Positions 39,230-39,715 of a stretch of DNA of 40,514 nt are shown one piece after another. How positions within the stretch are numbered: the stretch's first letter is position 1; the number at the start of each line of letters is the position of its first letter. Both the position numbers and the translations under genes were made by a program. The notes beneath the pieces were generated by a model, which did not search any database, was not told the DNA's origin, and saw nothing but the letters and a program-made list of their open reading frames with translations. The stretch is from an uncultured Candidatus Thioglobus sp. (GTDB taxonomy: Bacteria; Pseudomonadota; Gammaproteobacteria; PS1; Pseudothioglobaceae): positions 1 to 40,514 of the forward strand of contig CAJQTG010000032.1 of NCBI GenBank assembly GCA_905618925.1. Direction: 5' to 3'.

Positions 39230-39715
39230 TTAGTTCATTCTGGCTACTTCTTCTTCTACCCTTTGTAAAAAACTATCAAAACTAGCTATTCCTATAAAAA
39301 CTGTTGGTTCTGACACAGGTGAATTTGGTCCCGGGAAAAGAGTAAATACAGGGGTTAAGTCAAAATACTCTATTGCTTCCCAATAGGTGAGGTCTTTAAA
39401 GTTCAGTCCTGTTCCAGCACCAGTAGTTCCTCCCCTTAATCGCAAAACTAAATGAAGCGTTGCTTCCTTTTGGATATTATAATCATAAAGAGTTCTTCCA
39501 TCTTCAAGCTCCTTCCCAGCAAAGATTAACCTTTGCTGGTCTAGAGGAATACCTTCTTTATCTTGTATCTTTGTTTTGACATTTTCAATTGTGTCAGAAG
39601 GCTCAACATCTAATGTGATTGTTTTCCCCGTTAACGTCTTAGTAAAAATCTGCATCGCAAAAACAGAAGGTGATAATAAAAGCATTAATGAAAATAAAAG
39701 TAGGGTTTTCTTCAT
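39230..39715 (-). CDS. Secreted ubiquitin precursor: signal peptide, ubiquitin domain, C-terminal tail
   Basis: 161 residues in three parts. Residues 1-20 are a Sec signal peptide ([20 protein letters not shown]), whose S-V-F-A end would be cut exactly before the ubiquitin Met. Residues 21-96 match human ubiquitin at 69 of 76 positions; the changes are V5T, E16D, A28T, P38L, Q49E, S57Y and S65A. Lys6, 11, 27, 29, 33, 48 and 63, the Leu8/Ile44/His68/Val70 patch and RLRGG are kept. Residues 97-161 are an unrecognised tail ([20 protein letters not shown] then Pro-rich and a helical end). Codons are A+T-rich like the neighbours. It should be exported to the periplasm at least; beyond that is inference. 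Confidence 0.93.

Follow-up and report, generated by a model that had tools for sequence, protein, structure and literature searches.

What would a bacterium do with a ubiquitin that leaves its cell? Ubiquitin is taught as a eukaryotic protein, and a bacterial gene for a nearly human copy placed behind a bacterial leader raises the question of whether the gene is genuine and, if so, what such a protein might meet outside. The gene in question lies on a contig of 40,514 nucleotides (C32), which was analysed whole and is called the window here; the genome comprises 1.25 Mb in 41 contigs at 70% completeness. The bacterium is a marine gammaproteobacterium of the SUP05 clade, and we place it in the genus to which Ca. 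Thioglobus singularis PS1 belongs.

A ubiquitin gene with a predicted Sec leader

The ORF proved real and as a sequence-only reading of the window had described it: a 161-aa frame that matches the ubiquitin profile PF00240 with 98.7 bits over residues 23–94, the cut-off being 25.4 (Table 1). Alignment to PDB ubiquitin agrees with that reading's account of the mature domain, which differs from human ubiquitin at 7 of 76 positions (V5T, E16D, A28T, P38L, Q49E, S57Y and S65A) and keeps all seven lysines (K6, K11, K27, K29, K33, K48 and K63), the Ile44 patch, with L8, I44, H68 and V70, and RLRGG. In an AlphaFold model of the protein, block-mean pLDDT is 85–96 at residues 21–90 and 45–53 at residues 101–150, and a C-terminal helix of the tail has a pLDDT of 72–74; PDB ubiquitins rank top when Foldseek is run with this model. 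The proposed bacterial Sec signal before ubiquitin also found support: the leader satisfies a simple rule (a hydrophobic stretch whose A-x-A-like end abuts Met1) which, of 286 control methionines from within the tails of the ubiquitin proteins described below, lets only one pass; export is accordingly a prediction of that rule.

The 65-aa tail and the tRNA-His island described below are additions to the earlier account. RLRGG is present, yet 65 residues continue after it, and enzymes might process the protein at this point. Relatives of the tail were found neither in viral contigs nor in 83 genomes of the family, apart from its own, and the best match among the tails of other ubiquitin proteins had an E-value of 0.69. 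That the window protein is a ubiquitin placed between a bacterial leader and a short tail of its own is well supported.

Table 1. Coordinates of features in the window and of comparison genes at other loci
Feature	Position	Strand	Remarks
ORF of predicted exported-ubiquitin protein	39230..39715	-	161 aa, ATG at 39715
Predicted Sec-type leader	39656..39715	-	20 codons, VFA end abutting ubiquitin Met1; from sequence, leader rule and model helix 2-13
Ubiquitin domain	39428..39655	-	76 codons, MQIF...RLRGG, 69/76 identical to human
C-terminal tail beyond RLRGG	39233..39427	-	65 aa; C-terminal helix, otherwise low-confidence model
Duplicate of tRNA-His 3' part with flank (att-like repeat)	38682..38814	-	133 bp, 97% to L113 5629-5761
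EamA transporter gene	37436..38380	-	first core gene adjoining the island
72-aa ORF	40217..40435	-	resembles 69-aa ORF in G028 (L128 362-571; DNA 87%)
Upstream DNA into first codons	39707..40061	-	79-86% to DNA preceding start codons of other ORFs in G004, G006 and G028
Downstream DNA	38966..39117	-	80% to DNA just after the gene of an FG-GAP protein with leader in G023
SET-like neighbour gene, L015	3609-4595	-	likely SET-like
SET-like neighbour gene, L021	9255-10250	+	likely SET-like
SET-like neighbour gene, L050	6795-7796	-	likely SET-like

A variable island at tRNA-His

The gene is known in the genus from one bin of 70% completeness, where it lies 0.8 kb from a contig end; a PF00240 search of 28 congeners, of which many are incomplete genomes, was negative, which leaves its own genome as 1 of 29. 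Whole-protein matches in three congeners (L012, L013 and L014) reached at most 22 bits and were judged spurious: the first falls in an enzyme-like ORF, presumably of the aspartase or fumarase type, and at the other two there is no ORF in the frame read. Such an isolated occurrence could mean a misassembled eukaryotic sequence or a fresh transfer without function. We consider this very improbable, since the leader is bacterial, GC3 is 0.30 in the ubiquitin domain and 0.25 in leader plus tail against 0.21–0.26 in seven other genes of the window, similar genes occur in isolate-titled records, and the DNA on both sides is native.

This last point rests on matches to congeners. Upstream DNA resembles sequences in G004 (L127), G028 (L128), G006 (L108; 102 bp, 86%) and G023 (L112; 53 bp, 81%), of which G006 and G023 have theirs at the tRNA-His locus, and G004 and G028 at other places in their genomes. 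Downstream, similarity begins 113 bp past the ubiquitin stop, and within it 83 bp (39009–39091) are 73% identical to DNA 3' of a 205-aa leader ORF in G006. By eye, both flanks surround another ORF with a leader in two congeners, the FG-GAP gene of G023 and the 205-aa ORF of G006, each at tRNA-His. The flanks are therefore native to the genus and the ORF enclosed by them is exchanged, which strongly disfavours a chimeric assembly at the gene, a danger that the sequence-only reading had pointed out; eukaryotic contamination was rejected on the same ground. That reading had also named absence from all related genomes as a possible refutation. As far as the 28 congeners show, the gene is indeed absent, but this does not refute it, because it lies in a variable tRNA-His island between flanks that belong to the genus.

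The window side of the island consists of the tRNA-His duplicate, which is too short for ARAGORN and scores 23.3 bits in Rfam against a threshold of 29, followed by the transporter. On contig C40 of the same genome (L113), dnaQ and three tRNAs are followed by an integrase, with an intact tRNA-His at 5617–5692 and the tyrosine integrase at 5748–6797 (349 aa, PF00589). The borders of the element are thus split over C32 and C40, for which no join by overlap was found; G023 holds both on one contig and provides a complete case, with duplicate, cargo including an autotransporter, integrase and intact tRNA-His within 7 kb. The order in G010, G023 and G028 is dnaQ, tRNA-Pro, tRNA-Arg, tRNA-His, a variable stretch, the transporter, a DUF2628-like gene and further core genes. 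With the gene beside a duplicate of the tRNA-His 3' part, and an intact tRNA-His and an integrase on the other contig, it is most likely that the ubiquitin gene belongs to the cargo of an integrative element that has a tyrosine integrase and sits at tRNA-His.

The 3' end of tRNA-His is found copied repeatedly in the genus (in the window and at L108, L111, L112, L114, L116 and L119), and the tRNA region is matched in 26 of 29 genomes, in some solely through tRNA-Asn. Some copies adjoin autotransporter-like ORFs, at L112 and, by eye, on contig C1 of the same genome (L114 6210–9197). Large ORFs lie near the duplicates at L112 (7088–8332, 414 aa) and L119 (2289–3587, 432 aa); the former matches phrog_4756, of unknown function, which hints that part of the element is phage-like.

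Ubiquitin-headed proteins in other bacteria

A scan of the contigs of 84,980 GTDB species genomes returned 414 stretches that encode ubiquitin relatives, some of them surely eukaryotic contamination. By the leader rule, a leader immediately precedes Met1 at 69 of the best 80 of these 414 loci (70 of 83 ORFs); this share is inflated, since a leader was part of the query and one of the patterns searched for runs across the junction of leader and domain. Bacteroides fragilis, the bacterium that the sequence-only reading had named as a known exception, is hence not alone. In viral contigs, searched with the mature domain, nine loci were found, of which 5 have a leader before ubiquitin and three of these are near-copies; the five IMG/VR loci with leaders look like bacterial genes. 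For the window gene itself, a phage origin was rejected (no match to a phage record or PHROG), as was an anti-phage system (no PADLOC match).

The genes are rare in random samples: among 369 genomes drawn from the class, and likewise among 398 from the phylum, PF00240 exceeded its cut-off in 2, and our genome is one of the two each time. The other class match (L121) also has a leader before ubiquitin; the other phylum match (L125), which scores 26.6 bits, is ubiquitin-like but divergent, and no leader is visible in it. Each of 24 exporter genomes holds 1–2 copies. Similar genes are present in isolate-titled records, among them those of Dyella, Rhodoferax lacus, Neptunomonas antarctica and Ruminococcus albus. 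Among the loci gathered here, the exported copies bear the labels of 11 phylum-level groups, one of them archaeal, although some bin labels may be wrong: the tail of L016, a 'cyanobacterium', is nearly that of L015 from Methylophilaceae. A domain tree of 73 columns, which omits L074 because its contig begins within the leader and the leader rule fails, is unresolved and does not bring the exported copies together: labels change 15 times on it, and 16.0 times on average when shuffled. The tree fits one origin or many alike, and the identity across bacteria could come from repeated fresh transfers. That the window protein belongs to a widespread set of predicted exported, ubiquitin-headed bacterial proteins is well supported.

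Three local arrangements were seen besides. At L015, L016, L017, L027, L050 and L069 the frame stays open for 59–73 codons upstream of Met1, and an FTSTA-like motif shared before the hydrophobic leader possibly marks an extended signal peptide. L056 and L090, labelled as actinobacterial bins, carry tandem ubiquitin-headed genes that have related tails of ~150 aa and no leader. On plasmid pRUMAL01 of Ruminococcus albus 7, a leader-ubiquitin gene (L095 3923–4663) lies ~3 kb from a transposase-type gene.

A conserved domain with drifting ends and diverse tails

Conservation was counted on distinct domains, to which 77 exported proteins contribute 75. Residues of the globular surface are held in nearly all of them (K27 in 74, K29 in 75, K48 in 71, K63 in 74, I44 in 73 and H68 in 73), K6 (64) and V70 (63) somewhat less so; variation falls mainly at positions 16, 19, 20, 22, 24, 28 and 57, and the rest of positions 1–72 is mostly strongly conserved. 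Positions 73–76 drift, with G75 in 27 and G76 in 14 of the 75 domains, and both glycines are retained in 9 of the 77 proteins, the window copy included. Of 23 pairs chosen by hand for dN/dS, 16 have a ubiquitin dS above 1 or saturated and a dN of just 0.03–0.12, which indicates that purifying constraint operates within bacteria. Tails can be aligned in 13 of these 16 pairs; their dN is 0.14–0.66 and exceeds that of ubiquitin every time. Ubiquitin and tail agree in GC3 (r = 0.90, n = 79, non-exported rows included). Two pairs have a ubiquitin much younger than the tail (dS 0.02 versus 0.41 for L055–L078 and 0.31 versus 1.47 for L026–L037), so the ubiquitin module also moves between tails.

When the tails of all loci are compared, including those of proteins that are not exported, they form 19 groups and leave 25 singletons. 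A Pfam scan of 75 exported proteins, from which L008 and L009 were left out as copies of L007, found PF00240 in all, together with autotransporter (19), SLH (4), T9SS sorting (4), IPTL-CTERM (4, or 5 by NCBIfam) and dockerin (3) modules among the best 25 of 50 families, with counts that may overlap; all the named modules serve surface display or secretion.

This diversity of tails would suit a very stable domain that heads unrelated exported proteins and aids their folding or protease resistance, as would the place of ubiquitin first after the leader, which is true of the exported set by its defining rule. We think such a folding cap improbable. Fold alone should not preserve surface residues, the domain evolves far more slowly than the tails, and in three Dyella records and L002 the tail is absent altogether, leaving nothing to assist.

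A probable SET-like neighbour gene

A gene of ~330 aa stands beside ubiquitin at ten loci (L015, L016, L017, L020, L021, L027, L050, L054, L069 and L071). For 69 loci, the nearest ORF of at least 120 aa to either side was taken as a neighbour; this gave 122 ORFs, of which 121 were used after one ubiquitin ORF had been removed by hand; their Pfam annotation covers the best 25 of 196 families. Three members of the ~330-aa group gave no Pfam match, and a sequence search found no PDB relative (best E 0.17). The structural model (pLDDT 87) has six Foldseek matches with E<=0.001; the first is a plastid RNA polymerase-associated protein, four are SETD3 (probability 1.00), and the SET methyltransferase 1mlv is also among them. 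We take 1mlv to be Rubisco LSMT. TM-scores are just 0.35–0.46 with rmsd of 11–14, and on this modelled fold the gene is likely, though not proven, to be SET-like. Of 37 genomes searched, ours among them, 9 carry the gene, and all 9 had supplied rows of the search model; it was found neither in our genome nor in any of the 398 phylum-sample genomes.

A broader picture would have the exported ubiquitin as a general mobile module that works outside the cell, where it binds the partners of ubiquitin in eukaryotic predators or hosts, is mounted on whatever surface or secretion machinery is at hand and, in one branch, is paired with a SET-type methyltransferase that modifies ubiquitin or its passenger before export. 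We regard this picture as rather doubtful.

Possible roles outside the cell

Our tentative explanation as a whole is that the exported ubiquitin acts extracellularly through non-covalent binding, most likely of eukaryotic partners. Signal peptidase would cleave after VFA and release a ubiquitin with its natural N-terminus, and a protein that leaves the cytoplasm would be of no use to the producer in conjugation. Outside, the intact globular surface, with its lysines and I44 patch, would bind ubiquitin-recognising partners non-covalently, as mimic or decoy; these partners would most likely belong to eukaryotic predators or hosts of the bacterium (here protists). Should the window copy get into the cytosol of a eukaryote, cleavage by deubiquitinases after RLRGG could free the 65-aa tail. 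A role as mimic, decoy or inhibitor is thus offered as a hypothesis, in which export is predicted and the steps after it we infer; a protein that remained periplasmic or medium-borne might never meet a eukaryotic cytosol.

Several observations shape this explanation. That selection keeps residues of the globular surface argues for non-covalent partner binding. Conjugation in the producer is disfavoured by the leader, by the loss of both glycines in most copies and by a search for E2 (PF00179), run without a positive-control genome, that was negative in all 31 exporter genomes, our 70%-complete genome included. As for the identity of the partners, the variation in the exported set resembles that among eukaryotic ubiquitins. 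The ubiquitin of B. fragilis (BfUbb) likewise points to eukaryotic partners: the purified protein inhibits ubiquitination in vitro and binds human E1 covalently (PMC3352274).

Other findings on BfUbb run counter to eukaryotic partners, since its activity on living cells is antibacterial (PMC5705921). The exported ubiquitin could accordingly be a weapon of the BfUbb kind, strain-variable competition cargo that inhibits close relatives lacking the element. In the literature searched, BfUbb is the sole exported bacterial ubiquitin found with a tested activity, and that activity is inhibition of close relatives (PMC5705921); not every strain has the gene, which lies within 11 kb of low-GC DNA (PMC5705921, PMC3352274). 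Its leader, strain patchiness and low-GC setting have parallels in the Met1 fusion, the island and the single carrier among 29 genomes described above. The same slot carries other leader ORFs in G006 and G023, and loss of GG in most copies suits a non-conjugating toxin. On the other hand, BfUbb is 63% identical to human ubiquitin (PMC3352274) and has lost the terminal glycine, whereas the window copy, which is 91% identical and, in line with the sequence-only reading, far nearer to the human protein, retains RLRGG and bears a tail; an antibacterial target needs no retention of seven lysines, and the element is truncated by the contig end. We judge a weapon of this kind somewhat unlikely for the window protein, yet bacterial antagonism is nearly as likely as the binding of eukaryotic partners, which we continue to prefer.

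As selection maintains the surface and the conjugating end has mostly been given up, the question becomes what outside a bacterial cell must see ubiquitin, and the answer would bear on protist predation, on gut and rumen ecology and on bacterial competition. The findings suggest that ubiquitin, thought of as eukaryotic, also serves bacteria outside their cells.

Comparison with known systems

The island resembles tRNA-targeted integrative elements in having an intact tRNA and an integrase at one end, a duplicate of the tRNA 3' part at the other and exchangeable cargo; it differs in that its cargo is a leader-ubiquitin gene and in being broken by the assembly. We liken it to a tycheposon, which we take to be a tRNA-targeted, tyrosine-integrase element.

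For the protein, the order of leader, ubiquitin and short C-terminal extension is shared, in architecture only, with a secreted ubiquitin-extension effector of Globodera rostochiensis. As summarised in PMC5705921, that effector comes from a nematode and its 12-aa extension is cleaved in the plant, whereas the window protein is bacterial and its tail has 65 aa.

Among exported bacterial ubiquitins, BfUbb is the only one seen in the literature searched (PMC3352274, PMC5705921, PMC8003559, PMC4378268 and PMC4209131 among it), which covered few subscription papers, and the set may be described elsewhere. BfUbb has a signal peptidase I leader and a mature protein that begins at ubiquitin residue 1 (PMC5705921, PMC3352274), acts on bacteria in living-cell tests (PMC5705921) and comes from a producer in which no conjugating enzymes were seen (PMC3352274). 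The window leader also ends exactly before ubiquitin residue 1, and presence is variable in both cases. BfUbb reportedly acts on a bacterial isomerase, according to a later account. BfUbb ends at 76 aa without the terminal glycine and was tested as antibacterial; the window copy, in contrast, keeps RLRGG and adds 65 aa, and many of its relatives head large surface-type proteins. Overall, the evidence supports a bacterial gene whose product is a ubiquitin with predicted export, and similar ubiquitins, likewise predicted to be exported, occur in many unrelated bacteria.
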